A stretch of 64,000 bases of DNA, taken from the NCBI RefSeq assembly GCF_009741265.1, contig NZ_WOWL01000001.1:4030001-4094000 (forward strand), written 5' to 3'. Source of the DNA: Pseudarthrobacter sp. GA104. Its GTDB lineage: Bacteria; Actinomycetota; Actinomycetes; Actinomycetales; Micrococcaceae. The notes under the pieces are model-generated. The model did not search any database, was not told where the DNA came from, and saw only the letters and a list, made by a program, of their open reading frames with translations. Both the position numbers and the translations under genes were made by a program. This document shows positions 10,891 to 57,178 of the stretch, one piece after another; the first letter of the stretch is position 1, and each line of letters opens with the position of its first letter.

Positions 10891-12438
10891 TTGTCTTCAA
10901 CTCTCGAATTGCCCTCTGCCACCCCTCAGGGCGCCCCTGCCCCTGCAGCACAGTCCGGCCAGCGGCCGGACGTGCCCCGGGTCCTCTCGATCGCGGGCTC
11001 GGATCCGTCCGGCGGAGCCGGCGTCCAGGCGGACCTGAAAAGCATCGCGGCCCACGGCGGCTACGGAATGGCCGCCATCACTGCCCTCACCGCACAGAAC
11101 ACCCGCGGCGTACGCGGGGTCCACGTTCCGCCTGCTGACTTCCTCACCCGGCAACTTGACGCGCTCAGTGAGGACATCAGCATCGACGCCGTGAAAATCG
11201 GGATGCTGGGTGATGTCGCGGTGATCGAAGCTGTCCGGGCGTGGCTCGAAAAAGTCCGTCCCGGCGTCGTGGTTTTGGACCCTGTCATGGTGGCCACCAG
11301 CGGTGACCGGCTCCTGCAGGAATCCGCCGAAGCCGCACTTCGCGAGCTGCTGCCGCTGGCGCACCTCATCACGCCCAACCTGGCTGAACTTGCCATGCTG
11401 GTGGGCGGGAACGTGCAGGAGAGCTGGGAAGGCGCCCTGGAACAGGGCCGCGAGCTCTCTTCCGCCACCGGGGCGACGGTGCTTGTGAAGGGCGGACACC
11501 TGGCCGGGGACGAATGCCCCGACGCCCTTGTCAACACTGCAGGCACGCTTGGCCAGGACGTGGTGGTGGTCCCGGGCAGGCGGGTGGCAACGCTGAACAG
11601 CCACGGCACCGGTTGTTCACTGTCATCAGCCATGGCCACAGTCCAGGTGCGGCTGGGGGACTGGGAGGCAGCCCTCCGGGAGGTCAAGCCCTGGCTGTCC
11701 GGCGCGCTGGAGGCCTCGGAGTCGCTGGAGGTGGGTACGGGCAACGGACCAGTCCACCACTTCCACCACCTTCAGCCGGAGCCTGCTGAAGGCAGCTTCG
11801 CGGCGCGGCTGTGGGCTGAAGCGGAGGAGCACCTGGAAGCCATCTATTCCCTGGCGTTTATCCGGGACCTGGCCTCCGGCGACCTGGCCGAGAAACAGTT
11901 TGGCTACTACCTGGCCCAGGACGCCATCTACCTCAACGGTTATTCACGGGTGCTCGCGCGGACAAGTGCCCTGGCCCCCACCGAGGCAGAGCAACTCTTC
12001 TGGGCACGTTCCGCCGCGCAATGCCTGGAGGTCGAGTCTGAACTGCACCGCTCCTGGCTCAGTACCCGGACCGTTGAGCCGCAGCTGGGACCCGTAACCA
12101 AGTCCTACGTGGACCACCTGGTGGCGGCATCGGCGTCGGGCAGTTATGCCGTGCTGGCGGCAGCCGTCCTGCCCTGCTTCTGGCTGTACGCGGAGGTGGG
12201 CAAAACGCTCCACGCACAGTTCGTGGCTGCCGGGGAGCCGGCGGGCCATCCCTACGCGGAGTGGCTGCGCACATACGCGGATGAGGACTTCGCCGCGGCC
12301 ACCCGCAGGGCGGTTGCCATTGTGGACAGTGCGGGGCGCACCGCTCCGGCGCATGAGAAGGATGCCATGGCCACGGCATTCAGGCAGTCCTGCCGCCTGG
12401 AAGTTGAATTTTTCGACGCGCCGCGCCTTCATTCCTGA
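10891..12438 (+). CDS. thiD: fused HMP/HMP-P kinase (ThiD) and thiaminase II (TenA)
   Basis: Bifunctional thiamine biosynthesis and salvage enzyme of 515 residues. The ThiD half (about 30-285) phosphorylates hydroxymethylpyrimidine. It carries GSDPSGGAG at 36-44 and the ribokinase-type NSHGTGCS at 236-243. The TenA half (about 300-515) should release HMP from damaged thiamine. Its catalytic Cys is C429 in LPCFWLY, and the late acidic residue lies in RLEVEF. The TTG start is supported by GAAGGGA six bases upstream, within the TPP riboswitch. It stands alone between rne and the ribosomal genes. Confidence 0.94.
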   Translation: MSSTLELPSATPQGAPAPAAQSGQRPDVPRVLSIAGSDPSGGAGVQADLKSIAAHGGYGMAAITALTAQNTRGVRGVHVPPADFLTRQLDALSEDISIDAVKIGMLGDVAVIEAVRAWLEKVRPGVVVLDPVMVATSGDRLLQESAEAALRELLPLAHLITPNLAELAMLVGGNVQESWEGALEQGRELSSATGATVLVKGGHLAGDECPDALVNTAGTLGQDVVVVPGRRVATLNSHGTGCSLSSAMATVQVRLGDWEAALREVKPWLSGALEASESLEVGTGNGPVHHFHHLQPEPAEGSFAARLWAEAEEHLEAIYSLAFIRDLASGDLAEKQFGYYLAQDAIYLNGYSRVLARTSALAPTEAEQLFWARSAAQCLEVESELHRSWLSTRTVEPQLGPVTKSYVDHLVAASASGSYAVLAAAVLPCFWLYAEVGKTLHAQFVAAGEPAGHPYAEWLRTYADEDFAAATRRAVAIVDSAGRTAPAHEKDAMATAFRQSCRLEVEFFDAPRLHS

Positions 12439-12539
12439 CGTCCGGACGGCCGCCGCGCCGGTACTATGGTGGGGCACCCCCCGGCCAAGGAAATGTGTTG
12501 TGGTACCTATCACAGACAACCCGCCGGAACCAGCCTCAT

Positions 12540-12569
12540 TTGCGGCCGAAGCCAAAACTAGCGTATTCT
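12540..12569 (+). promoter_or_regulatory. promoter of rplU-rpmA
   Basis: TTGCGG (12540-12545), an 18-base spacer and TATTCT (12564-12569) form a good housekeeping-sigma promoter. It would give an untranslated leader of roughly 125 bases before rplU. Confidence 0.6.
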
Positions 12570-12701
12570 AGATCTTCGGTGCTTACGCCAACACTTGGGT
12601 TATGACCCCACGGCGTTGAGGCACAGCGAGAGCCCAACCAATTATGGAACCGGGTTCCGCACGCAAATTTGTAATAAACGTCGAGAGAAGTGAGTTCCCA
12701 A

Positions 12702-13010
12702 GTGGTGTACGCGATTGTCCGCGCAGGCGGCCGCCAAGAGAAGGTTTCCGTTGGAGACTTCGTTACCCTGAACCGCGTCGCCGGTGGAGCTGGCAGCACC
12801 ATTCAGCTGCCCGCACTGCTCCTGGTTGATGGTGACAAGGTCACCTCCGCCGCTGCTGACCTGGCCAAGGTAACTGTTACGGCTGAGATCCTCCAGGACC
12901 TCCGTGGTCCTAAGATTGTGATCCAGAAGTTCAAGAACAAGACCGGTTACAAGAAGCGCCAGGGTCACCGCCAGGAACTGACCAAGGTCAAGATCACTGG
13001 TATCAAGTAA
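12702..13010 (+). CDS. rplU: 50S ribosomal protein L21
   Basis: Large-subunit protein that binds 23S rRNA near L20. The 102-residue form from GTG 12702 begins [11 protein letters not shown], the usual L21 N-terminus, and ends with the basic KKRQGHRQ tail. An earlier in-frame GTG at 12690 would add four non-conserved residues and lies inside the AAGTGAG ribosome site. It pairs with rpmA 61 bases downstream. Confidence 0.97.
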
Positions 13011-13071
13011 CCTTCCGTTACTGTTCAGGTTTTTCAGCAGATTCCCCAGAATTTAGAGGCAGGCATTTCAG

Positions 13072-13335
13072 ATGGCACATAAAAAGGGCGCGAGCTCCAC
13101 TCGCAACGGTCGTGACTCCAACGCACAGTACCTCGGCGTCAAGCGCTTCGGCGGTCAGGTAGTTTCCGCAGGCGAGATCATCGTCCGCCAGCGCGGCACC
13201 CACTTCCACCCGGGCGCCGGCGTTGGCCGCGGCGGCGACGACACCCTGTTCGCCCTGACCCCGGGCGCCGTTGAATTCGGCACCCGCCGCGGTCGTCGCG
13301 TCGTCAACATCGTTGCTGCTGCAGCTGCAGAGTAA
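13072..13335 (+). CDS. rpmA: 50S ribosomal protein L27
   Basis: Large-subunit protein whose N-terminal tail reaches the peptidyl-transferase centre. It has 87 residues. The mature-type start [15 protein letters not shown] directly follows Met, so no N-terminal cleavage is needed, unlike in Firmicutes. The [17 protein letters not shown] block is characteristic. It is followed by a terminator, so obg is not simply the third gene of this operon. Confidence 0.97.
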
Positions 13336-13352
13336 CAACCAGTTCTGAAGCG

Positions 13353-13389
13353 GTGGAGCGGGCCATGTGGTCCGCTCCACTGTTCTTTT
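13353..13389 (+). terminator. rpmA terminator
   Basis: A 9-bp stem (13353-13361 with 13372-13380) with a 10-base loop is followed by a T-rich run (13381-13389). It sits 17 bases after the rpmA stop. Confidence 0.75.
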
Positions 13390-13391
13390 AA

Positions 13392-16182
<2,791 letters not shown>

Positions 16183-20366: not shown

Positions 20367-20439
20367 GGGGCTGTGGCGCAGCTGGTAGCGCACCTGCATG
20401 GCATGCAGGGGGTCAGGGGTTCGAGTCCCCTCAGCTCCA
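20367..20439 (+). tRNA. tRNA-Ala (anticodon GGC), copy 1
   Basis: 73-base cloverleaf with no sequence deviation from copy 2. Acceptor stem GGGGCTG/CAGCTCC, anticodon stem CCTGC/GCAGG with loop ATGGCAT (anticodon GGC) and T-loop TTCGAGT. The terminal CCA is not fully encoded (ACCG follows). A possible promoter is TTGGAA (20285-20290), 18 bases, TAAGAT (20309-20314). Confidence 0.97.
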
Positions 20440-20447
20440 CCGGACGG

Positions 20448-20483
20448 TCCGCCGGAATCACTGCGATTCCGGCGGATTTTTTT
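20448..20483 (+). terminator. terminator of tRNA-Ala copy 1
   Basis: A 12-bp stem (20448-20459 with 20465-20476) and five-base loop are followed by seven T (20477-20483): a classical intrinsic terminator. Confidence 0.93.
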
Positions 20484-20615
20484 GTGTGCTTTTACCTGCC
20501 CCGGCTGGGAGCCGATGCGGCCGCCAAGGCGGACCAGGCCGATTGGCGTGAGCGGCGAAAGTGCATTAAGCTGAACAGGTTGCTTCGAGGTGGTAAACCG
20601 GGGGCGGCAAAGTCC

Positions 20616-20688
20616 GGGGCTGTGGCGCAGCTGGTAGCGCACCTGCATGGCATGCAGGGGGTCAGGGGTTCGAGTCCCCTCAGCTCCA
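20616..20688 (+). tRNA. tRNA-Ala (anticodon GGC), copy 2
   Basis: Identical to the copy 249 bases upstream. It has its own promoter-like pair TTGGCG (20543-20548), 18 bases, TAAGCT (20567-20572). The leader shares GTTGCTTCG and CGGCAA blocks with the first copy, so the whole transcription unit was probably duplicated. Confidence 0.97.
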
Positions 20689-20695
20689 CCGGCAC

Positions 20696-47304: not shown

Positions 47305-47324
47305 GACCCCTGTGAGATCGGAAG

Positions 47325-47495
47325 CTAGTTGGCGGTATGAACTCTAGTTGGCGAAACAGGACTGGAACACTGGCGAAGACTGGTTTTGATGGCGGTAGCC
47401 CGACGACGCCGGGTTAGGGACAAAAATCTTGATCGGCTGGGAGTTGACAAGTTAGTTGGCGCCGTAACAAACAGGATGGCGCGGTGCCAACTAAC
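47325..47495 (+). repeat. left-end repeat cluster of the island
   Basis: TGGCG-containing repeats in one orientation begin at 47330 (TGGCGGTA), 47349 (TGGCGAA), 47371 (TGGCGAA), 47390 (TGGCGGTA) and 47457, with the first four spaced 19, 22 and 19 bases. GTTAGTTGGCGCC (47451-47463) faces GGTGCCAACTAAC (47483-47495), a 12/13 inverted repeat. The remaining bases up to 47801 show no gene. Confidence 0.65.
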
Positions 47496-47801
47496 ATGTT
47501 CAGCGCTGGATCTTGCATGCTTCAAATACTCAGCAAGGTGTGTCCTCTGCTCGGTGTGGCTGGTCAATTCGACGGAATTTCTTGGCACTCAACCCGGAGG
47601 TGCGAGATCGCACACAACGTGGGAGCTCCTTCCGGGCCGAAATCACCAAGGAGCAAGTCTGAGTGTCGGCAGATGAATGGGCGCAAGAACCGAACTTGCG
47701 GCTGCCACGCAGAGACTGTCCCGCCGTCCAGCACACAGGGGGGACCTCCCCGAGTTATATTGCTATTTCAAGTAAAGCGCGCGGCTGCGCGGCGCACTCG
47801 T

Positions 47802-49436
47802 TTAGAGCGCTAAATCGACCAAGTTCACAAGCGGGCTCTGTCTGAGTTCGTCGCGCAGTTGCGTACCGCTCAAACGCTGCTTGGACTGGGCCTGGCCAGT
47901 GAGTCGTAGCGTCCAATGTCCGTCTTCCAAGTCCAAAACGTGGAGCCCACGCTTGAGTCGAATGTCCGTAAACTCGCTTAGGTCCAAGACATAAGCTTCG
48001 TACCTAACGCCGCTCTTGTGCTGATCTGAGAGAGACGACTGGACCAAGTGAGCGAATCGCAGGTCCACCAAGAGCGCCAGAAGCTCGTATCCTGGGGAAT
48101 TCTTCTGCGAAACGTCTATGCGGAAGTATGCGTAGCCCGCACCCTTCACGATCGAGGACAGCTCTTCGAGCGCACCCAGCAATACATCCGCATTCCCCGC
48201 AACGTCTTGTTCAAGGTCTCGCTTCTTGCCACGGGCTAGCCGACCGGCCGCCACGGCTACGTCTTCGCGCCCCAGCTCCTTCGCGAGTGTGCGCTTCTCG
48301 CGAGCAACCACGAGGGAAGATGCAAAGAGATTTAGATAATCTCGTGGAACCCCGCCAGATGCCAGAACCAAGCGGCCCAGAGCCTCGGACTTGGCGATTG
48401 ATGACGGGGATTTGATGCCAGCGGTTGTCGTGTACTTGACCAACACTGCCTCCAGGAAGTGTTGCGTGGCCTGAGGATCTTCGAGGGTCATGTCCAAATC
48501 GATCTTTGTGGCGTCGTGCGGGATTTCGAGCCCGACACGCGCTGACGGCTCGTACGGCCGTGTCAATCGTTCAATGCTGGCAACTTTTACCCATCCATCG
48601 CAGTCGCGAAGCATTCCGGCGACGTAGTCCAGGAACGCAGGCTGGGCATTCAAAGGCAGCAAGTAGAAATCATCGATAAATACATAGAATCGCACCAGCC
48701 CAGGGCGCAGGACTGCCCTAAGGACCTGGTTAATTTCCGGCAACCGACGTGCGATGGCACTCTCCACGTTCTGATTATTGTCGACCAGGTCTGCCAGCTC
48801 ATCCCGAATCGTCCGAAGTCGGGAGAATGCCGTCCCGCCTGAGCTTCCACCCTGCTCTGCCAGGGTGGAAAGGATCATTCCGGCCAGAACTGCAGCTGCG
48901 TTGCCCACGGTGTGGTGCCTGAGGACATGAGCGTTCAGCCAGAGGGTTACGTGACCTTCACGCTCCGCGACCCTCTTTGCTTCCAGCAGTAGGGCGGTTT
49001 TCCCTACACCTCTTCGTCCGTACACGAGCTGATGACGCGACGCACCCACGGCCGCGAGGCTGGTGCGCGGGTCTTCCACATAGTGGAGACTTGGGAGGGC
49101 GTCGGAAGTGCGCGACCGAGCCTCCATTAGTTGAACAAGCTGGTCGACGTCGCGCTCCGCCAAGCGGCCGCGTCTTACGGGCGGGGCCACAGGAGCGTCT
49201 GCAACTACTGCGGGGCGGACCACAACTACGAATGAGCTGGAATCTCCATCGACCTGCTTGTTGAGTGTCTGCTCCAACGATCCAGCCAAGCTTTGCGCCG
49301 CTACTAAGCTCTCCCCGGCCACGTAGGTAATCAGCCATCGCTCACCAGGGAAACTGCGTTCTTGCACGTCACTGACAGAAATTCCGGCCGTGGCGAGTGT
49401 GCTGATGAGCAATTCGACGTGTTCAATGCTGGACAT
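47802..49436 (-). CDS. AAA/STAND-like ATPase partnered with a HEPN protein
   Basis: 544-residue ATPase of unknown specific function. An N-terminal domain of about 110 residues has no recognisable match. Walker A GRRGVGKT is at 140-147 and Walker B FIDDF at 253-257; GGVPRDYLNLF further on resembles the sensor/winged region of ORC- and STAND-type ATPases. The ATG overlaps the stop of the HEPN gene as TAATG, so both are translationally coupled. Context suggests a sensor or activator for the HEPN nuclease in a defence or abortive-infection system. Confidence 0.8.
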   Translation of the reverse strand: MSSIEHVELLISTLATAGISVSDVQERSFPGERWLITYVAGESLVAAQSLAGSLEQTLNKQVDGDSSSFVVVVRPAVVADAPVAPPVRRGRLAERDVDQLVQLMEARSRTSDALPSLHYVEDPRTSLAAVGASRHQLVYGRRGVGKTALLLEAKRVAEREGHVTLWLNAHVLRHHTVGNAAAVLAGMILSTLAEQGGSSGGTAFSRLRTIRDELADLVDNNQNVESAIARRLPEINQVLRAVLRPGLVRFYVFIDDFYLLPLNAQPAFLDYVAGMLRDCDGWVKVASIERLTRPYEPSARVGLEIPHDATKIDLDMTLEDPQATQHFLEAVLVKYTTTAGIKSPSSIAKSEALGRLVLASGGVPRDYLNLFASSLVVAREKRTLAKELGREDVAVAAGRLARGKKRDLEQDVAGNADVLLGALEELSSIVKGAGYAYFRIDVSQKNSPGYELLALLVDLRFAHLVQSSLSDQHKSGVRYEAYVLDLSEFTDIRLKRGLHVLDLEDGHWTLRLTGQAQSKQRLSGTQLRDELRQSPLVNLVDLAL

Positions 49437-49942
49437 TAGATGTATCCGTTCTGCAGTGCGAAATCCTCGCACGCTTGGCAAAATTCAGATGCTACGACTG
49501 ACAGCGCCCGAGCGTCCGCTTCCCAGTCCGACTGCTGCGTCGGGTATGGATCGTAATCCGCGAGATTTCTCAGGAGCCTCGCGTCCGTGAGCTCGATTTC
49601 GCGCTTTCCTACGTCGACCATCGAGTGGGGAAGGTTTCGCGGGAGCGTGGAATGAGCTTGGTGGTCATCCCCGCCGTGGAAAGCAAAGCTGATGGCTCGC
49701 GCTGCGTGATACATGGCGTAGTAATGACGGCTTATAGAGGCCCGATACTGCAGGTCAAAAACTAGTCTGTCTCCGGTCGCCAGTTGTGAGCCGGAAAGAA
49801 CAAATCGGTCTGAGACGATCTGACTAACCATCTGAGTGAGCGGTAGGGGATACCGCCGACCAGCCGGAAGGTTCAATATATCCACTTTTTTCAAAGTGGC
49901 AATGAACAGCAAGAAACTGTCCGCGGTGTTTAGCTGTGGCAA
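49436..49942 (-). CDS. HEPN-domain protein, probable RNase
   Basis: 168 residues. SRHYYAMYHAAR contains R72-x6-H79, the RNase signature of HEPN nucleases, in the helix where it is expected. The later RNLADYDP and following acidic helix also fit the HEPN fold. It starts at TTG 49942 with AAGGGG nine bases upstream. It is coupled to the downstream ATPase. HEPN/ATPase pairs are common in toxin-antitoxin and phage-defence loci; the target RNA here is unknown. Confidence 0.7.
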   Translation of the reverse strand: MPQLNTADSFLLFIATLKKVDILNLPAGRRYPLPLTQMVSQIVSDRFVLSGSQLATGDRLVFDLQYRASISRHYYAMYHAARAISFAFHGGDDHQAHSTLPRNLPHSMVDVGKREIELTDARLLRNLADYDPYPTQQSDWEADARALSVVASEFCQACEDFALQNGYI

Positions 49943-50008
49943 GCCTTCGTACCCCTTCTACCCCCGGACAAGCCAACTCACAGGCAGCCCCAATTTGAGT
50001 TGAGTCTT

Positions 50009-50454
50009 TCACACGCACAGCGAGTATCGGAAGATCGCCATACCCACCTTCCGCGGCGGAAACGGTGAGAGCGTTACGTCTTCGCTTGGAATGAAGCCTG
50101 ACCCGTGCACTTCGATGAGCTGATGTGGCGGCCGGTGCCGCGCTCGCAGCATCGCGCTGGAGCGTGAGGCTTCATCCGCAGACCGCTCGCGTCTGGTCGC
50201 ATGGACGATGTTAGTGAAGACAGAGCCATCGTGCTCGTGAACTTCGACCCGAACGGAGTGGCTGCGATGGGCCGACAAGGCATCGAGCAGGTCACCGAAT
50301 CGAGCACGAGTCCACTCGGTTGTCGATCCTGTGGCGGGAACTCATGCCCGTCGTAGACGACATGCATGACACCGTTCGCGTCGACGCTGATGCTGGCAAA
50401 CGGAAGGGTGACTGGCAGTTCTGGTGGGGTTTCTCTGGCGTTGCGATTGCTCAT
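50009..50454 (-). pseudogene. frameshifted hypothetical gene
   Basis: From ATG 50454 the frame reads MSNRNARETPPELP, then SISVDANGVMHVVYDGHEF up to about residue 45. After a one-base shift near 50315 an adjacent frame continues TEWTRARFGDLLDAL, then SVRVEVHEHDGSVFTNIV, to the stop at 50009. Together they give one protein of about 148 residues without internal repeats. It may be a relic of an ICE accessory gene; I do not know the family. A sequencing error cannot be excluded. Confidence 0.55.
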
Positions 50455-50490
50455 GCAAGGTGAGTGCGCGATGCTTCGCAGACTTTCTCG

Positions 50491-50521
50491 TTGCATCGCC
50501 TGTAGATACGACACATATGTT
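50491..50521 (+). promoter_or_regulatory. promoter/operator of the PIN-kinase operon
   Basis: TTGCAT (50491-50496) and TATGTT (50516-50521) are spaced 19 bases, and the -10 overlaps a perfect ACATATGT palindrome (50513-50520). GTTACAGTTACAGCAGTTA repeats follow. This is a good position for autoregulation by the HTH protein encoded next. Confidence 0.4.
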
Positions 50522-50563
50522 ACAGTTACAGCAGTTAAGGGCAGTTGTGGCAATGGAGGCGGC

Positions 50564-50992
50564 ATGGACGGGCAAGAAGAAGACTCGATCGACGTGCTAC
50601 GCCGCGCGCTCCGAGAAGCTAGCGGTCACGTGCAAGTAACGCTCACGCTCTCGCGCAGAAGCGCAGAGAACATTCTGCGACTCCTTGAAGCGGAGCATGG
50701 ATCAGGTGCCGTCGTCGTTCCCGTTAAGGAGCAATACACGACCACGGAAGCTTCGAACTTGCTCGGCGTCTCTCGGGCAACGCTCATGAAGCTCATCGAA
50801 TCAGGCAGCATCGAAGCTGTGAAAGTTGGGACGCACCACCGCATCCCTGCCGACGAATTGGTTGCGTTCCAGCGTGCCCGCCAGGTGAGCCAGGAAAGGG
50901 CCGCAGAACTGCTCACAGAGTTCTCTTCTCGTTCGGCCGCCGGCTTCCACAGCAACGTTACGTTCCGCGCTAGCGTTCAAGGGGAGGAGTGA
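50564..50992 (+). CDS. excisionase-type HTH protein, candidate antitoxin/regulator
   Basis: 142 residues. An N-terminal helical part (1-50) is followed by a MerR/excisionase-type winged HTH at about 58-108 (TTTEASNLLGVSRATLMKLIE, then a GTHHRIPADEL wing). Proteins of this layout often act as antitoxins of PIN-domain toxins in actinobacteria. ATG 50564 has TGGAGG upstream. It ends one base before the PIN-kinase gene, so the two are co-expressed; that pairing is the main evidence for an antitoxin role. Confidence 0.8.
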   Translation: MDGQEEDSIDVLRRALREASGHVQVTLTLSRRSAENILRLLEAEHGSGAVVVPVKEQYTTTEASNLLGVSRATLMKLIESGSIEAVKVGTHHRIPADELVAFQRARQVSQERAAELLTEFSSRSAAGFHSNVTFRASVQGEE

Positions 50993-50993
50993 G

Positions 50994-53474
50994 GTGACGA
51001 ATCAACGGCCACTGATGCCTGCGACAGGACCTATGCCAACACCACGCCCGCCAATTGGTGAAACCCCGACTCGACGCTCTGCGGAACACCTCGTTGCGTC
51101 CGTTCTTGCGCCTGAGGATTTCGTCGAGACCGGCCGCCGACTCTTCATCGATACGAACGTCTTCATGGACACAGACACTGCACGCTCAGCAGGTCTGAAG
51201 AGACTCTTCGAGCGTTGCAAGGATGTCGCCATCCGCAATGGCAACGGCATCGTGGTCCCGTCCAAGGTCATCGATGAGCTCTCCAAGCAGAGCGGCCTGG
51301 ATGTCTCGCTGTTCACTGAGGAGCGCGCGGCCGCAGTGCGTCGTGCTGGCCAGTGGCTCACGGCGTTGGAGTCCGCGGCAGCACACGGACTCGTTCGCAA
51401 GGACCTTGGTGACGGATCGAACCCTTATGCAGACGACCTGTTCGTCGATCTCTTCACGCACTTCAGCGACCGGTACGACATGAGCCTGCTGACCAACGAC
51501 ATCACATTGCGGCTGCGCATCCGACTGCTCGCGGCCGAGGCGAAGTGTCAGCTCGTGGCAGGCACAGTAAATGTGGATGGTCGGATTGCAGTAGATTCCG
51601 ACCAGGACTTGTACCAGCGTGGCGCTGGAAAGCTCGCCCGCATGACGCGGCACGCCGATGAGGGGCTTGCGAAGGCCAAAGACTATGCCGAAGTGGAGAC
51701 GCTGGCCCCTCTGCTGGACAAGTTCAAGCGCAGGTTTGGCGTCGCCGAAGTCGACGCGAGGCCTGGAGGCAGGCGCGACACCAGTGCGGCAAAGAGGCCT
51801 GCTCCGCAACGAGCGGACGGAGCTTTCAAGCGTGTGACAACGCTCAAGCCGAAGGATCAGCTGCTTGAAGATGCAGCCATCCCCATCTCCGGTGACCAGG
51901 TGATCGCAGTGTCACTACATTCGCGTCACGCGCTCATCTTGGGCGAACGGGTTGGCGAGGGCGGTGAGGGTTCCGTCTATGCCGTGCGAGACAATCCCAG
52001 CAAGGTAGTCAAGATCTTCGACAGGGACCATCGAACCGAACATCGCAAGGCAAAGCTCGAGCTCCTTCTATCGCACGAACTTGAAACGCCAGGCATTGGT
52101 TTTCCCTCGCACATCATCACAAATGGTGACGGTGACTTCGTTGGCTACGCCATGCCGCGAGCAACTGGGAAGGAGCTCCAGGCGACGATCATGCGTCCTG
52201 CTCGGTTCAAAAGGATGTATCCGACTTGGACCAAAGCAGACCTCGTAGATGTTTGCGTCTCATTCCTGAAAAAGGTTGCCTACCTGCATTCGCTGAACAT
52301 CCTCCTCGGTGATATAAATCCGAAGAATCTTATGGTTGACGAGCATAAGAACGTTTGGATCATCGATGCCGACTCATGGCAGGTAGAAGGGTACCCCTGC
52401 CCCGTGGGGACGGCGATGTTCACCGCGTCTACGATCACGGGCGACTACGCTGACGCGCTGCGCACCGTCGAGGAGGAACGTTTTGCGATCGCAACGATGC
52501 TCTTCATGATTCTCATCACGGGTCAGTTCCCCTATGCGCGCGCCGGAGCTGATGGTGGCGACTTTGCAGCCCTAATCAAGGAAGGCAAGTTCGCTTTCCA
52601 GTTCCAGGGAGCGTCCGACCAGGACCAGCCCGAGGGGAACTGGAAGTTCATGTGGAGCCACCTCCCTTTTCAAATCAAGCGCCTGTTCTGGCACGCATTT
52701 CAGCGCCAGGGCGGCTCACGCTATGATCGTCGCCCGACAGCGAACGAGTGGCTCGCGGCATTCCGCGAATACCGCGACTTCTTCGGTGGCAACGACGATT
52801 TCGACCCTATGTCGAACGATGTCTACCCTTTTCGATTCCGTGCATTCCGGCCTGACACACCTATCCGCGACTGTCCGCAGTGTAAGCGGCCGAGCGCAAT
52901 CGTCGGCAGGTGGGACGAAGAGAACCAGTCCTACTACGAACCCAGCCTTTGCTACGACTGCAATCAGAGCAAATCGAGATGCGCGGACTGCGGCAAACCA
53001 AGGCCTGCTGACGCGCTGAACGAAAGTCGTTGCTGGGACTGCAACCGCAAGCGCAACTACGCGACCTGCGAGAACTGCAACAGGGAAGTTGCCCAGACGT
53101 ACCTGGTCGATGGTCGATGCTCAAACTGTCAACCGGTTCCGTGCAAGGACTGTAAGACGTTGACTGCGAAGACCGAACTCTCTTACGGGCGCTGCGCTGC
53201 GTGCGTCAAGAAGGCAGCGGAACTCAACCCGGCGCGGCTTTGTGCCGAGTGTCGCCAGCCCTTCATCACTTTCGATCATGAGCGGTGGTTCCGATCCAAG
53301 GGGCTCGATATTCCAAAGTCTCATCAGACCGCGACAAAGCAACCTTGTCCACCGCGCTCGACTGCTTCGCGCCCGCCGCGCACAGCCCCGAGGTCGTCGC
53401 CCTCCTCCGCTAACTCAGCCGTGCCGCCGAAGAAGAGCTTCTGGCAGCGTCTCGTCACGTGGCTGAGCTCCTGA
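50994..53474 (+). CDS. PIN nuclease - protein kinase - zinc-ribbon fusion protein
   Basis: 826 residues. PIN domain at about 45-200 with a complete acidic set (D53 in FIDTN, E95 in VIDELS, D148, D169 in LLTND). Kinase domain at about 300-600: glycine loop GEGGEGSV at 321-328, VVKIFD lysine, catalytic GDINPKN (D440, N445) instead of HRD, and DADSW (D458/D460) instead of DFG, as in TerY-associated kinases. Nine CxxC motifs from C627 to C753 form several zinc ribbons; the last resembles zf-trcl but has lost its second Cys pair. GGGGAGGAG precedes the GTG. Confidence 0.85.
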   Translation: MTNQRPLMPATGPMPTPRPPIGETPTRRSAEHLVASVLAPEDFVETGRRLFIDTNVFMDTDTARSAGLKRLFERCKDVAIRNGNGIVVPSKVIDELSKQSGLDVSLFTEERAAAVRRAGQWLTALESAAAHGLVRKDLGDGSNPYADDLFVDLFTHFSDRYDMSLLTNDITLRLRIRLLAAEAKCQLVAGTVNVDGRIAVDSDQDLYQRGAGKLARMTRHADEGLAKAKDYAEVETLAPLLDKFKRRFGVAEVDARPGGRRDTSAAKRPAPQRADGAFKRVTTLKPKDQLLEDAAIPISGDQVIAVSLHSRHALILGERVGEGGEGSVYAVRDNPSKVVKIFDRDHRTEHRKAKLELLLSHELETPGIGFPSHIITNGDGDFVGYAMPRATGKELQATIMRPARFKRMYPTWTKADLVDVCVSFLKKVAYLHSLNILLGDINPKNLMVDEHKNVWIIDADSWQVEGYPCPVGTAMFTASTITGDYADALRTVEEERFAIATMLFMILITGQFPYARAGADGGDFAALIKEGKFAFQFQGASDQDQPEGNWKFMWSHLPFQIKRLFWHAFQRQGGSRYDRRPTANEWLAAFREYRDFFGGNDDFDPMSNDVYPFRFRAFRPDTPIRDCPQCKRPSAIVGRWDEENQSYYEPSLCYDCNQSKSRCADCGKPRPADALNESRCWDCNRKRNYATCENCNREVAQTYLVDGRCSNCQPVPCKDCKTLTAKTELSYGRCAACVKKAAELNPARLCAECRQPFITFDHERWFRSKGLDIPKSHQTATKQPCPPRSTASRPPRTAPRSSPSSANSAVPPKKSFWQRLVTWLSS

Positions 53475-53513
53475 TCCACTACTAAGCGATCAGATCAAAT
53501 GAAAGGTAATCCC

Positions 53514-54194
53514 ATGGCACTCAACATCGGCGCCGACGACCTCGTCGAGAACCCGACTCCGCGCGTACCCGTCGCGCTTTGCCTCGACACGAGCGGATCG
53601 ATGATGGGAGACAACATCCGCGAGCTTGTCAAGGGCGTCAACCTGTTCTACGACGCGATTGACGAAGATGACGACGCCCACGACGCCGCCGAAGTGAGCA
53701 TCGTCGAGTTCAACTCTGCTGTGAGCCTGATTCAGGACTTCGCTAGTATTGAGCGGCTAAACCGAATCGATGCCATCGATGCGACGGGCGGCACGGCCCT
53801 CGGCGAGGGAGTTAACCTCGCCCTCGACACGCTCGAGAAGCGAAAGTCCACTTATTCCAACGCTGGCGTCCTGTACTACCAGCCCTGGCTCGTTCTGATG
53901 ACCGACGGTAAGCCTAACGGGCGTCCTGACGAACTCGAACGCGCAGTCCACCGCGTGACGGAACTTGTCGCCCAGAAGAAGCTCACAGTATTCCCGATCG
54001 GGATCGGGGCTGATGCCGACATGAATGTGCTGGCCCGATTCAGCCCGAACCGTCCGCCGCTTCGGCTCCAAGGCCTGAGCTTTAAGGAGTTCTTCGAGTG
54101 GCTGTCGAAGTCTGTTTCCCGTGTCTCCCGGTCCACCCCTGGAGACACGGTCAAGCTTGATCTTGAGGGCTTGGCTGGCTGGGCGGAGTTGTAA
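53514..54194 (+). CDS. TerY-like VWA domain protein
   Basis: 226-residue cytoplasmic VWA protein. The MIDAS motif DTSGSM is at 25-30, with GGTALGEG and MTDGKP supplying the other metal contacts. No membrane segment is present. It resembles TerY, which in TerY-P triads binds between a kinase and a PP2C phosphatase. I start at ATG 53514 (AAAGG eight bases upstream) rather than ATG 53499. It directly precedes the phosphatase gene without a gap. Confidence 0.88.
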   Translation: MALNIGADDLVENPTPRVPVALCLDTSGSMMGDNIRELVKGVNLFYDAIDEDDDAHDAAEVSIVEFNSAVSLIQDFASIERLNRIDAIDATGGTALGEGVNLALDTLEKRKSTYSNAGVLYYQPWLVLMTDGKPNGRPDELERAVHRVTELVAQKKLTVFPIGIGADADMNVLARFSPNRPPLRLQGLSFKEFFEWLSKSVSRVSRSTPGDTVKLDLEGLAGWAEL

Positions 54195-54983
54195 GTGTTC
54201 AATGAGTTCCATCATCAGGTGCGTGGCCGAGGGCACGAGCTTGACGGAACGCGCGGTCAGGATCGGACTCAGTACCTTTCACGCGGCGGCGTTCAAGCGA
54301 TCTGTCTAGCTGACGGCGCTGGGTCCGCTTCGCATTCCGAATTTGGCGCGCAAGCGGTGGCAGACGAAGGATGCGCCGCGCTGGTCGAGCAGTTCGAACA
54401 GCTTGTCGCGAGCGTCGACGGCGGCCAGATCAAGATCGAGCTCCTAGAGCGACTTCTCGCCAAGGTCAACATGCTCGCCGAACGACACGGTCGTGACGTT
54501 CACGATTTTTCCTCGACCTTCCTCGGCGTTGCGGTTTCTGGCGACAAGTTTCTTGGTGCACATGTTGGCGACGGCGTAATTGGATACCTCAAGGACGGTG
54601 ACCTGCGTGTCATCTCCGCTCCGGATAACAGCGAGTTCGCCAATCAGACCACCTTCGTGACTTCTCACGGTGCCGCCGGGTCGATGCGACTCTTTCGGGG
54701 CTCGCTGCAGGGGGTGACCGGATTCATTCTCATGAGTGATGGCGCTGGGGACAGCCTCTTCAACGCTCGCACGCGTCAGCTGGCGGCGGCCTGCGAGAAG
54801 CTTATTGTGGCTGTCGGGGCTGCGCCCGCCAGACTGAGTCAGAACTCAAAACACAAGAATCAGTGGCGGAAGTTCATAGACGTCAGAGTGCGCAACGCGA
54901 CGAAGGATGACTGTTCCATCGGCGTCTTTGGTCGGCCGGTGGCGTCCCAACGCGAACGATCAGGGTCCGCGAAAACGTCATGA
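54195..54983 (+). CDS. PP2C-type protein phosphatase
   Basis: 262 residues. Metal-binding motifs are in order: LADGAGSA (D40), VGDG (125-127), MSDGAGD (D182) and DDCS (D239). The short family form with GAGSA is typical of phosphatases in TerY-P operons. The GTG start follows the VWA stop without spacing. It should reverse phosphorylation by the kinase two genes upstream. Its 3' end overlaps the convergent conjugation ATPase stump by a few bases. Confidence 0.88.
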   Translation: MFNEFHHQVRGRGHELDGTRGQDRTQYLSRGGVQAICLADGAGSASHSEFGAQAVADEGCAALVEQFEQLVASVDGGQIKIELLERLLAKVNMLAERHGRDVHDFSSTFLGVAVSGDKFLGAHVGDGVIGYLKDGDLRVISAPDNSEFANQTTFVTSHGAAGSMRLFRGSLQGVTGFILMSDGAGDSLFNARTRQLAAACEKLIVAVGAAPARLSQNSKHKNQWRKFIDVRVRNATKDDCSIGVFGRPVASQRERSGSAKTS

Positions 54984-55592
54984 ATCGTCGAGGGCATGGC
55001 GGCTGCCCACCATCCGTCTAGTAGTGTCGAAGAGCTCCAGTTCGCCGGGGTGCAGCTGGTGCTGGCACACGAACGAGCGATCCTTGATGCGCCACAGGCA
55101 CTGGCCCACGCCAAGCCCGGGGAGTGGCTTCTGTTCGGTTCCGGTGAGTCCCAGCGCTCCGGCTGTGACTCCGAGCTGGTCAGCCTCCTGTCGGTAGATG
55201 ATCCGGGTTTCGGTGTTAGCCAAGAGGCTGTTTGCCAGCGCACGCATTGCTGAGCCTTGAGCCCCGACATTCTCGAGGTCCGTTAGCTTGTGAAAGATCA
55301 GCATGCATGCAATCCCGTAGTGCCGAGCGAGCCGCCAATGCGCATCTATCCGTCGCAGAAGCGCCAGGTGTGACATAAGCCGCCAGGCTTCGTCGTAGAT
55401 GCACCAGCGTGTTCCAAAGGCGTGAGCGGCCGAGTCAGCACGGTATCCCTCTCGTTCGCCAACTAGGTCTGGGCTGATGTCAGTTACGAGGATGTTCCCA
55501 ACCGCGGATACTTGGCGTTTCGCATGTGGCGGAAGCCGCCAACTAGGCCTCGGTCTCACAACCCCTGCCGCGATACCTTTCGGATCTGACAC
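54978..55592 (-). pseudogene. C-terminal stump of an ICE conjugation ATPase
   Basis: About 170 residues match from memory the end of actinobacterial TraG/VirB4-like transfer ATPases: RWCIYDEAWRLM (Walker B region), ARHYGIACMLIFHKLTDLENVG, LLANTETRIIYRQ, ALGLTGTEQ and a C-terminal FDTTRRM. The P-loop half is missing. The open frame continues upstream through the right-end repeat with about 30 unrelated residues. The truncation point sits at the island edge. Confidence 0.7.
55455..55546 (-). repeat. right-end inverted repeats of the island
   Basis: On the minus strand CTAGTTGGCGG (55546-55536) and CTAGTTGGCGAA (55466-55455) repeat the two outermost left-end repeats in the same order. Extra TGGCG copies in the other orientation lie between them (55512 and 55527). 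Confidence 0.65.
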
Positions 55593-55640: not shown

Positions 55641-57178
55641 TTAGTTGGCACTGAGGTAGGCGCGCAGGAACTGTTCTGCGGCAGATGGCGGTACCTTAAG
55701 GTAGTCCACGGTCCCGCCCACGGTGGTGGGCATAGGCGGGTAAAGCCGTTGTGGTTTCCATTCGCCGGCTTCCGGCGCGATCGAACGCGGCCAGTGGGGC
55801 GGCTCCCAGTCCTGGTGTTCGCTTTTGTAGTTCCGTCCTGATGGTGAGACCCAGCCGGGCGGCTCATTTTTTGTTGCCGGCGTCGGTCTCCAGCCGCTGG
55901 CGTGTTTGAGTCTGTGGTGCCGTGGACAGGGCTGTCCCAGGTTGCTGATCCCGGTGGTTCCGCCGTGATGCCAGGCCAAGAGGTGGTCGGCTTCGTTGTC
56001 CAGGGAATGGTTGCTGCACCCGGGGAACGGGCATTTGCCGTCACGCATCCGTAGCCAGTTCCGCATGGCCTTTGTGACCCGGTAACTCGAGCGTCCGATC
56101 TCCAAGGGTGCCCCGTCCCGTGGATCCACGAGCACCCGGTGGAACGAGTCCGCTCCATTGGCCACCAGATTCCGTGCCATGGAGGCAGGAATGGGTCCAA
56201 ACCCGTCGAGCATGGCCGGCTCCTCCGTCGCCCCGAGCAGGGAGAAGACAGGAACGGTAACCAGGATTTCGGCCCGGGGCGTAGGTAGACCGGCAAGACC
56301 GCTGGCCCCTGCATCCGGCCCAGCCCCGGTCGCGCCGCTGACGCCGTTGCTGCAGCGGGTGCAGCCGTTGTCGCTGCGCAGGGCTGCCGTTGCGAATACG
56401 TCCGCCCGCAACTGGGTGAGCGTCCGGGCCTCGTTAGGCCCCTGCAGGCCCCGGGCGATGGCGGTAATGCGGTTCCAGATCGCAGCCCCCTGGTCCGCCG
56501 GCAGGTAGGCAGACACCCGCGCCATGCCGTCCTGCTCCGGGGTGTATTCCAGGCATCTGTCCTGCACTCCTTTGGCATGGCGTTTTTCGATACTGTCGGG
56601 GTGGTGCCGTTCGCGCCAGGTCCTGGCCTTCCGCCGGAACCTGAAGGCGGGCATCTCGCCGACAGGACAGCCGCGGGCAGGAGAGGCCGCATCATCCCCG
56701 AGGAAGTGGGCTTCAAGTGCCCCCGCTGCGTCGCGGTCGAGGGTGGCGGTTTCGTCCACCATGACCTTGGCGTGTTGCCACGAAACAGTTCCCGCCTGCA
56801 AGGCTGACAGGGTCCGGGGTAGGGACGTAGCTAGAGCATGGGATTGTTCCAGCAGCATGCCTGCGGCCCGATCGCCGATGGCCAGGACGCAGCCCACCTC
56901 GGCCGCTATTGCCATTTCCTGGGCTGGGCCGGCATGTCTACGGGCGCCGCCGACCGCGCCGAGTCCGCATAGGTAGCTGCTGCCTCCGCCTTCAATGCCG
57001 CGATCCGAGCTTCGGCCCGTGCGCTCCCGGCAAGGACGTCCAAGCACTCATCAGCCACGGCGGCCAGAGGGTCGGTGTCCGACGCCGGCCCGCGATGGGG
57101 CCGGGCGACTTCGGCGCGAATTATGGCAATCGCGTCGTCGATCGCCCCAAAAGCCTTTTCCACCGCTTCGCTTGCCAT
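55641..57178 (-). pseudogene. DUF222/HNH endonuclease gene with a frameshift
   Basis: Two frames together give one DUF222-HNH protein of about 510 residues (13E12-repeat type). The N-terminal part runs from ATG 57178 to a stop at about 56906. The rest begins in the next frame at AQEMAIAAEVGC and runs to 55641. The frames meet at about 56910-56925, in CAGCCCAG. The HNH nuclease core with CPFPGC, ADHLLAWHHGG and CPRHHRLKH is intact. The last codons (gtgccaactaa) repeat the island's end motif. It may be a pseudogene or a sequencing error. Confidence 0.75.

Follow-up and report, generated by a model that had tools for sequence, protein, structure and literature searches.

A TerY-P-type operon with a PIN domain inside its kinase protein, carried by a transposon of Pseudarthrobacter: a candidate phospho-controlled ribonuclease

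TerY-P triads, composed of a TerY-like VWA protein, a PP2C phosphatase and a kinase with zinc ribbon, were described as a hypothetical metal-sensing switch, and versions with an OB fold are cited as anti-phage (PMC11090510, citing Anantharaman 2012 for the triad and the metal-sensing proposal). What is controlled by the phosphorylation is not stated in the literature passages on anti-phage TerY-P. This question is raised in a particular form by a stretch of 64,000 nucleotides from Pseudarthrobacter sp. GA104 (contig NZ_WOWL01000001.1, positions 4,030,001 to 4,094,000; genome of 4.78 Mb), the whole of which is called the window in the following. At 50564-54983 on its plus strand, all inside 4.4 kb, lie four genes for a helix-turn-helix (HTH) protein of the HTH_17 family, a PIN-kinase-zinc-ribbon protein, a VWA protein and a PP2C phosphatase. 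What would a TerY-P system do with a putative ribonuclease (RNase) built into its kinase protein? The operon consists of the following features.

50564..50992, plus strand: HTH_17 (excisionase/MerR-like) antitoxin-type protein, 142 amino acids; stop 1 base ahead of the GTG of the next gene
50994..53474, plus strand: PIN-kinase-zinc-ribbon protein, 826 amino acids, GTG start (Pfam, alignment)
51099..51743, plus strand: PIN domain as modelled, residues 36-250, acids D53, E95, D147, D169 (AlphaFold, structure match, conservation)
51903..52796, plus strand: protein kinase domain, residues 304-601, K340, D440, N445 and D458 kept (Pfam, fold match, conservation)
52872..53264, plus strand: Cys-rich zinc-ribbon array, residues 627-757, nine CxxC (sequence reading, conservation)
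53499..54194, plus strand: TerY-like VWA protein, 231 amino acids, intact metal ion-dependent adhesion site (MIDAS; DTSGSM..T..MTDG) (Pfam, alignment)
54195..54983, plus strand: PP2C-type Ser/Thr phosphatase (PP2C_2), 262 amino acids, GTG start immediately after the VWA stop (Pfam)

The four open reading frames (ORFs), which a first-pass annotation made from the letters alone had placed here, were all recovered, and the TerY-P-like triad that it had proposed was identified by Pfam and motif reading. The products of the HTH, VWA and PP2C genes score 50.7 bits for HTH_17 (cut-off 27), 48.6 bits for VWA (cut-off 23.8) and 131.7 bits for PP2C_2 (cut-off 24), and the kinase reaches 38.9 bits for Pkinase at residues 317-516 (cut-off 31.7) and Z 15.3-16.6 in the best 50 rows of a fold search, PknB included. 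The MIDAS residues DTS.S, T99 and D136 are invariant in an alignment of 9 VWA sequences; the true start of this protein is probably the ATG at 53514 behind an AAAGG box and not 53499. Nine CxxC motifs were read between residues 627 and 753, and ten zinc-ribbon cysteines are invariant in a 10-sequence alignment of the PIN-kinase proteins, of which the more distant L027 and L028 lack four (keeping six) and L084 lacks two. With a MIDAS-type VWA protein, an adjacent PP2C gene and a Ser/Thr kinase with C-terminal zinc ribbon, the operon has the parts that make a TerY-P system, and the PIN-kinase fusion is a variant of this known kind.

The PIN-kinase was found in 20 distinct loci after removal of repeats (four genomes of the genus and G414 duplicate loci of the scan), of which L012 is cut and L084 is split, leaving 19 uncut loci. 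The loci span Actinomycetota, Bacillota and Fusobacteriota plus a contig labelled Stenotrophomonas, making the family broader than the window alone could show. VWA and PP2C genes follow the PIN-kinase gene in 19/19 uncut loci, which bears out the strict linkage that was proposed from the window alone. Identities to the window are 42-93% over the full-length protein in the 10-sequence alignment, the nearest named locus being that of Arthrobacter sp. MAHUQ-56 (93%), and since these and more distant relatives keep the trio together the association is not due to chance. Ten of the loci (L003-L012) come from a scan of genome contigs, with hosts among Agromyces, Arthrobacter, Cryobacterium, Microbacterium and Flavimobilis, the contig labelled Stenotrophomonas and a Propionibacterium metagenome-assembled genome. 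Among plasmids 44 records match, mostly via the kinase part, and among the matches listed one extends over at least 80% of the query; of the 15 records examined, three hold the order PIN-kinase, VWA, PP2C, from Paenarthrobacter (L026), Lysinibacillus (L027) and Fusobacterium (L028). In L084 (genome G672) the protein is divided into a 215-amino-acid PIN ORF and a 592-amino-acid kinase ORF, which share 16 bases and precede VWA and PP2C; the kinase ORF has a start of its own, although a frameshifted fusion is possible. ORFs noted by eye upstream of this locus resemble a TIR protein and an AbiE pair. The contig labelled Stenotrophomonas maltophilia (L011) carries an operon near the actinobacterial ones together with a TrwC relaxase gene, by contamination or transfer.

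The remaining 12 of the 15 plasmid records, recovered through their kinases (L029-L032, L075-L082), are ordinary TerY-P triads and were used as comparators. They share with the PIN-type set the same three partners and the C-terminal zinc ribbons, at identities of 36-46% for VWA, 24-37% for PP2C and 26-30% for the kinase domain. Their order is VWA-PP2C-kinase in 12/12, whereas that of the PIN-type operons is kinase-VWA-PP2C in 19/19, and they leave no room for an N-terminal PIN, in the ten annotated ones because the kinase domain begins at the gene start and in the other two as judged from the spacing behind PP2C; a Pfam scan of three comparator kinases yielded no PIN. Moreover, 18 PIN-type rows fall on one side of a branch both in the VWA tree (support 100/98) and in the kinase-domain tree (support 93/98), from which L012 and L084 were left out and in which long branches were flagged by treekit. 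On these trees the PIN-type set is one clade apart from the 12 ordinary triads, the nearest comparator being that of Photobacterium. Besides the N-terminal PIN, the own gene order and the often present HTH_17 leader, the set differs in a C-terminal CFI box, found in four of six members scanned (L008, L010, L027, L028). Two of the comparators on rhizobial plasmids (L030, L081) lie directly after hxsB-hxsC-hxsA (His-Xaa-Ser peptide) genes.

The assignment of the PIN domain begins with a marginal Pfam score (PIN_4, 22.7 bits at residues 52-175, cut-off 21.9), and it is strengthened by structure and conservation. The AlphaFold model of residues 36-250, built from an 11-sequence alignment, has a mean predicted local distance difference test (pLDDT) score of 91.3 and matches in VIA-align the PIN domain of SMG6 with Z 11.0 (root-mean-square deviation 2.9 over 127 residues), Utp24 with Z 9.7 and VapC15 with Z 7.4. 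In Foldseek the top four solved chains are all SMG6/EST1A PIN (E 1.2e-3 to 1.8e-3). A search by sequence with the window PIN reached no solved chain up to E 1. The four acids D53, E95, D147 and D169 are present in 20/20 loci, and in PIN enzymes this acidic tetrad is metal-binding. The PIN fold with intact acidic site, previously read from the letters, is in this way supported by the structural match across residues 45-200. By the models its class is nearest to SMG6, an RNA endonuclease, more than to VapC chains; a VapC-type toxin was considered less likely given Z 7.4 against 11.0, a comparison in which the shorter VapC chains depress Z. From model and sequence the domain is predicted to be a metal-dependent endoribonuclease. 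The model of the whole 826-amino-acid protein is poor (mean pLDDT 68), and no domain arrangement was drawn from it for this reason; its fold-search listings are filled by kinases.

Further domains hint at where the protein may work. The L003 protein carries two N-terminal IF2_N domains (Pfam, E 7e-16) and the L011 protein an N-terminal S1 domain (Pfam, E 4e-8). These are domains of initiation factor IF-2 and ribosomal protein S1, suggesting RNA or translation as the place where the system might act. In L009 and L061 the S1 part is apparently divided over two frames, and Pfam finds nothing in this fragment. In the Lysinibacillus protein an N-terminal IF2_N domain was suspected from reading the sequence; the idea was dropped, as a Pfam scan gave no match.

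Taken together, sequence and models suggest a phospho-switch of the TerY-P type that brings its own RNase, with phage as the probable trigger and an optional antitoxin layer, a reading to which we give an even chance. Support for a switch with its own RNase comes from the linkage in 19/19 loci, the PIN acids in 20/20, the kinase residues K340, D440, N445 and D458, kept in 19/19 loci (L012 being cut), and the single clade. An RNase output is supported by the closeness of the PIN model to the RNA endonucleases SMG6 and Utp24, by S1 and IF2_N in relatives, by the separate PIN ORF in G672 and by a ratio of nonsynonymous to synonymous substitution rates (dN/dS) of 0.28 for PIN in one pair, the window and L005. 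In this single pair, with few changes, the values are 0.49 for the N-terminus, 0.62 for the linker, 0.09 for the kinase, 0.37 for the zinc part, 0.03 for VWA and 0.17 for HTH. A role in defence is supported by the patchy occurrence (10/206 genomes of the genus), by mobility on a transposon and a conjugative plasmid, by restriction or Abi genes as neighbours in three loci and by a TerY-P variant that was reported to protect Pseudomonas against phage, most infected cells surviving (PMC10889362, from the passages on this variant). The optional antitoxin layer is supported by the association of the HTH family with PIN-like ORFs and by HTH and PIN-kinase genes that abut or overlap in many loci, both described below.

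According to this phospho-switch reading, the PIN domain would be the output as a metal-dependent endoribonuclease, whose state would be set by the kinase on the same polypeptide together with the VWA scaffold and the PP2C phosphatase. The zinc ribbons, in relatives also the N-terminal S1 or IF2_N domains, might bind nucleic acid or ribosomes and thereby sense the trigger or direct the cut. In the most likely resting state PIN would be kept off via phosphorylation by its own kinase, and in 13/20 loci the co-translated HTH protein might restrain it as well, binding PIN and repressing the operon. On arrival of a trigger, with phage infection as the probable one and the VWA/zinc-ribbon part as its probable sensor, PP2C would prevail and the freed PIN would cut RNA of the phage, the cell or both, so that phage production stops. 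We infer the RNase activity, the direction of the phospho-control, the trigger and the role in defence. The weakest step is the direction, in which the phosphorylated form would be the inactive one and which we consider a little better than even; it is favoured because of a precedent, the kinase TakA, which neutralises the toxin TglT by phosphorylation (PMC7205606, in the part available). A bolder version, which we regard as possible and doubtful, is an immune switch with RNase and restraining kinase in one protein: the PIN toxin would be neutralised in cis through phosphorylation and, in many loci, additionally by the HTH antitoxin; the phosphatase, controlled by a VWA/zinc-ribbon sensor, would release it, and S1, IF2_N or zinc ribbons would aim it at ribosomes or translation.

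Several observations weigh against the phospho-switch with its own RNase. There is no evident phosphosite, the Ser/Thr residues of the PIN-kinase linker varying in the 10-sequence alignment, and the dN/dS of PP2C is 0.53 in the pair mentioned above. PIN_4 exceeds the Pfam cut-off in just 3/10 members scanned (window 22.7, L026 23.2, L028 27.3 bits), five others score 14.4-19.2 bits, and L009 and L011 yield PIN_12 alone, below its cut-off; for the PIN model Foldseek returned no PDB chain at E <=0.001 (best 1.2e-3). In PADLOC neither the window VWA nor PP2C had a match up to E 1. The 20 loci include near-copies, with L052 and L053 about 95% identical to L009, L049 96% to L004 over 4.1 kb and L054 99% to L055 over 4.4 kb. 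Three scans of viral contigs gave no relative and 50,697 phage records one weak match to the kinase part alone, for which reason a phage origin of the operon was also discarded. Moreover, survival of most infected cells in the tested TerY-P relative disfavours a suicidal nuclease there (PMC10889362, same passages). Finally, the HTH gene was not found in seven loci, as described below.

The fusion differs from each of the related systems that were compared. In the module of Gao 2020, named TerY-P or STK-OB and cited as anti-phage (PMC11090510, PMC7699616, in the passages that mention it), VWA, phosphatase and kinase likewise form one defence unit, whereas its kinase has an OB fold and not PIN as fusion partner; the PADLOC STK_OB model reaches the window kinase at E 0.029 only, which does not count as a match. 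E. coli yegL-pphC-yegI, for which kinase and phosphatase activities were published (PMC13232886, in the part available), also has adjacent VWA, PP2C and kinase genes. Its order is, in contrast, VWA-PP2C-kinase, and Pfam finds no PIN and one HhH-like match below cut-off. The kinase gene yegI adjoins the chaperone gene yegD; likewise, in L049 (G117, 11742-13508) an Hsp70-like gene (Pfam HSP70) lies upstream of the PIN-kinase operon. TakA-TglT, as far as described in the text available of PMC7205606, is an analogue in its way of working alone, in that a kinase would keep a toxic enzyme off by phosphorylation; it differs in having an unrelated toxin (a guanylyltransferase), an atypical kinase, two proteins and neither VWA nor PP2C. 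CoCoNuT systems of type II/III-A couple TerY-P to predicted RNases, whereas HEPN nucleases and McrBC-like NTPases occur there as proteins of their own and the nuclease here resides in the kinase protein (PMC11090510, in the passages on these types); no McrBC-like gene was among the proteins scanned between 47311 and 55560. Membership in MADS was considered because of PADLOC matches to mad1 (HTH), mad6 (kinase) and mad8 (conjugation-ATPase fragment) at E 3e-7 to 2e-4. It was rejected, as these matches look generic; no methyltransferase was among the eight window proteins scanned.

Furthermore, kinase-zinc-ribbon genes of actinobacteria, accompanied by PP2C and vWA, were reported near GAP1-N2 genes (PMC7159879, in the passage concerned), and in a passage of PMC3710099 PIN is named among the nucleases fused to CARF domains, with a TerY-dependent system mentioned separately. 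A text search of PMC11090510 did not return the term "PIN domain", and in the parts of the open-licence PMC literature that were searched no description of a PIN-kinase TerY-P fusion was met; Anantharaman 2012 or Gao 2020 may mention it earlier. That a natural TerY-P kinase-nuclease fusion persists across three phyla, its catalytic residues all intact, suggests RNA cleavage as one output of TerY-P, and a single-operon system lets this question be tested directly.

The same data can be read with the kinase as effector of an anti-phage phospho-signalling system, in which PIN and zinc ribbons would serve only for binding or sensing nucleic acid and would signal to the kinase when to fire. This resembles other kinase-based defence, and TerY-P triads are reported as anti-phage with no PIN mentioned in the passages concerned (PMC10889362, PMC7699616). 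The kinase is also the most constrained part of the fusion protein (dN/dS 0.09) with all catalytic residues kept, and the zinc ribbons, like S1/IF2_N, hint at binding of nucleic acid. However, the four acids kept in 20/20 loci would be needless in a pure binding domain, and in G672 PIN has an ORF to itself; we consider a kinase effector rather unlikely.

In a further reading the operon would be a toxin-antitoxin cassette stabilizing mobile DNA, with HTH as antitoxin, PIN as toxin and kinase, PP2C and VWA for tuning, and no real role in defence. A search for HTH homologues in 121 genomes of the genus (E <=1e-7) gave 18 matches in 16 genomes, six of which are PIN-kinase loci. Of the other 12, as read from the sequence, eleven have a PIN-like ORF next (truncated in L074, with a stop inside the HTH match), and L064 has no intact ORF next, so that the HTH gene in the window belongs to a family associated with PIN genes. 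Two of these stand-alone PINs were scanned by Pfam, giving PIN_3 above cut-off for L066 and below for L069. We take such HTH_17/PIN (PIN_3) pairs to be an actinobacterial kind of toxin-antitoxin system; they resemble the operon in that a PIN gene comes after an HTH gene of this family and differ in that their PIN is stand-alone (PIN_3 in one of the two scanned), whereas here it is PIN_4/SMG6-like and fused to a kinase. The HTH stop and the PIN-kinase start abut or overlap in the window and in L003, L004, L007, L011, L012, L026, L054 and L055, and a few hundred bases separate the two in L009, L052 and L053.

This family tie, the abutting genes and the copies on plasmids and a transposon favour the cassette. 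Against it, an HTH gene is present in 13/20 loci (window and 12/19 others) and was not found upstream in the other seven (L006, L008, L010, L027, L028, L084 and, within 1.5 kb upstream, L049), whereas VWA and PP2C are kept in all 19 uncut loci, and the PIN model is closer to SMG6 than to VapC. An antitoxin is hence not present wherever the putative toxin is, neutralisation by HTH is not essential throughout, and HTH is an optional layer and no fixed part. The first-pass annotation, which had an antitoxin-type HTH gene leading the operon, was right in the family; its interpretation is plausible in outline, with the HTH gene as such a layer. The cassette appears quite unlikely to us. If the phospho-switch reading is true, a DNA-binding antitoxin and reversible phosphorylation, two styles of regulation, would join on one RNase. 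In Fusobacterium (L028, 6316-7221) an XRE-type HTH gene lies directly before the PIN-kinase gene, with a partly degenerate PIN-like region apparently without one acid, detected by tblastn alone.

Occurrence is patchy: the PIN-kinase gene was found in 10/206 genomes of the genus, own included, and not in G155 of the same species; in 2/59 relatives and 1/120 genomes of the family; and the VWA at E 1e-60 in 3/198 genomes of the order and 2/198 of the phylum, the own genome counted in each. Signalling in stress or metal response, the older view of TerY-P as hypothetical metal-sensing switch (PMC11090510, citing Anantharaman 2012, in the passage cited at the outset), with PIN in regulated RNA turnover or ribosomal RNA quality control, would suit a model close to the RNA-processing nucleases SMG6 and Utp24 and is improbable in view of this patchy, mobile distribution.

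The mobility is directly visible in the window, where the operon is carried by a transposon with the following features.

47306..47310, no strand: target-site duplication ACCCC, 5 bp, left copy, beginning two bases past the nrdF stop codon
47311..55560, no strand: transposon carrying the operon, 8,250 bp (terminal inverted repeats, TAGTTGGC repeats, empty site in same-species genome)
47311..47335, plus strand: left terminal inverted repeat (TGTGAG...TAGTTGGCGG; inverted-repeat search)
47802..49481, minus strand: P-loop ATPase, 559 amino acids (longest ORF), overlapping the HEPN-like ORF, co-cargo (AAA_16 32.8 bits, cut-off 32.6)
49436..49942, minus strand: HEPN-like protein, 168 amino acids, co-cargo (Pfam HEPN 16.8 bits, below cut-off 22; PADLOC HEPN_IX E 2e-5)
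54978..55560, minus strand: conjugation ATPase gene fragment, TraC/VirB4-like (TraC E 4.5e-6, below cut-off)
55536..55560, minus strand: right terminal inverted repeat (CCGCCAACTAGG...CTCACA; inverted-repeat search)
55561..55565, no strand: target-site duplication ACCCC, 5 bp, right copy (sequence reading, G155 comparison)

The inverted ends measure 25 bp and are 80% complementary, the TAGTTGGC repeats are grouped near both ends with one further copy just outside at 55642, and the element is inserted six bases past the nrdF stop, at a site that is uninterrupted in G155. That genome has another insertion about 37 bp further, with TGTGAG/CTCACA ends about 58 kb apart, a duplication ACTCC and a TniA-like stretch between the ends (23% identity, E 1e-11). 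The TG..CA inverted-repeat ends, repeated internal sites and 5-bp target duplication of the carrier fit what we take to be a Tn7/Tn5053-like transposon. No transposase gene was recognised within 47311-55560, and none of the TniR/TniA/TniB-type proteins encoded by the Paenarthrobacter plasmid had a match in the window, a search that a distant transposase would escape. The G007 copy of the operon is located 3.4 kb past nrdF (a right transposon end was sought in this copy and not found) and those of G115 and G117 about 21-25 kb past it; in L009, L052 and L053 the operon lies about 2-5 kb from a DUF3090 gene and its neighbour, which bound the same interval in the window. The stretch behind nrdF is probably an insertion hotspot or attachment region for such elements.

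The island in which the operon had been placed, beside a second nuclease module, is this 8.25-kb transposon. For the second module the HEPN-like/ATPase pair (47802-49942) is the candidate inside it, possibly a second conflict module, with HEPN below cut-off and the ATPase matching the Sll1717 family at E 5e-7, also below cut-off; a DUF222-HNH gene (55641-57047) lies outside. The TraC/VirB4-like fragment shares 76% identity with a portion of a longer ORF that lies behind the operon in Agromyces; judging from this match, the fragment is probably a leftover of an earlier home of the operon. The Paenarthrobacter copy (L026) resides on a conjugative plasmid downstream of recombinase, Mu-type transposase and AAA ATPase genes, and conjugation genes adjoin the loci L003 and L011. 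Restriction or Abi genes are found near three loci among the minority of neighbourhoods that were scanned, with Abi_2, HsdR and HsdS in L006 and N6-methylases in L008 and L012. Elsewhere in the window, two tandem tRNA-Ala(GGC) genes lie at 20367-20690, 249 bases from start to start.

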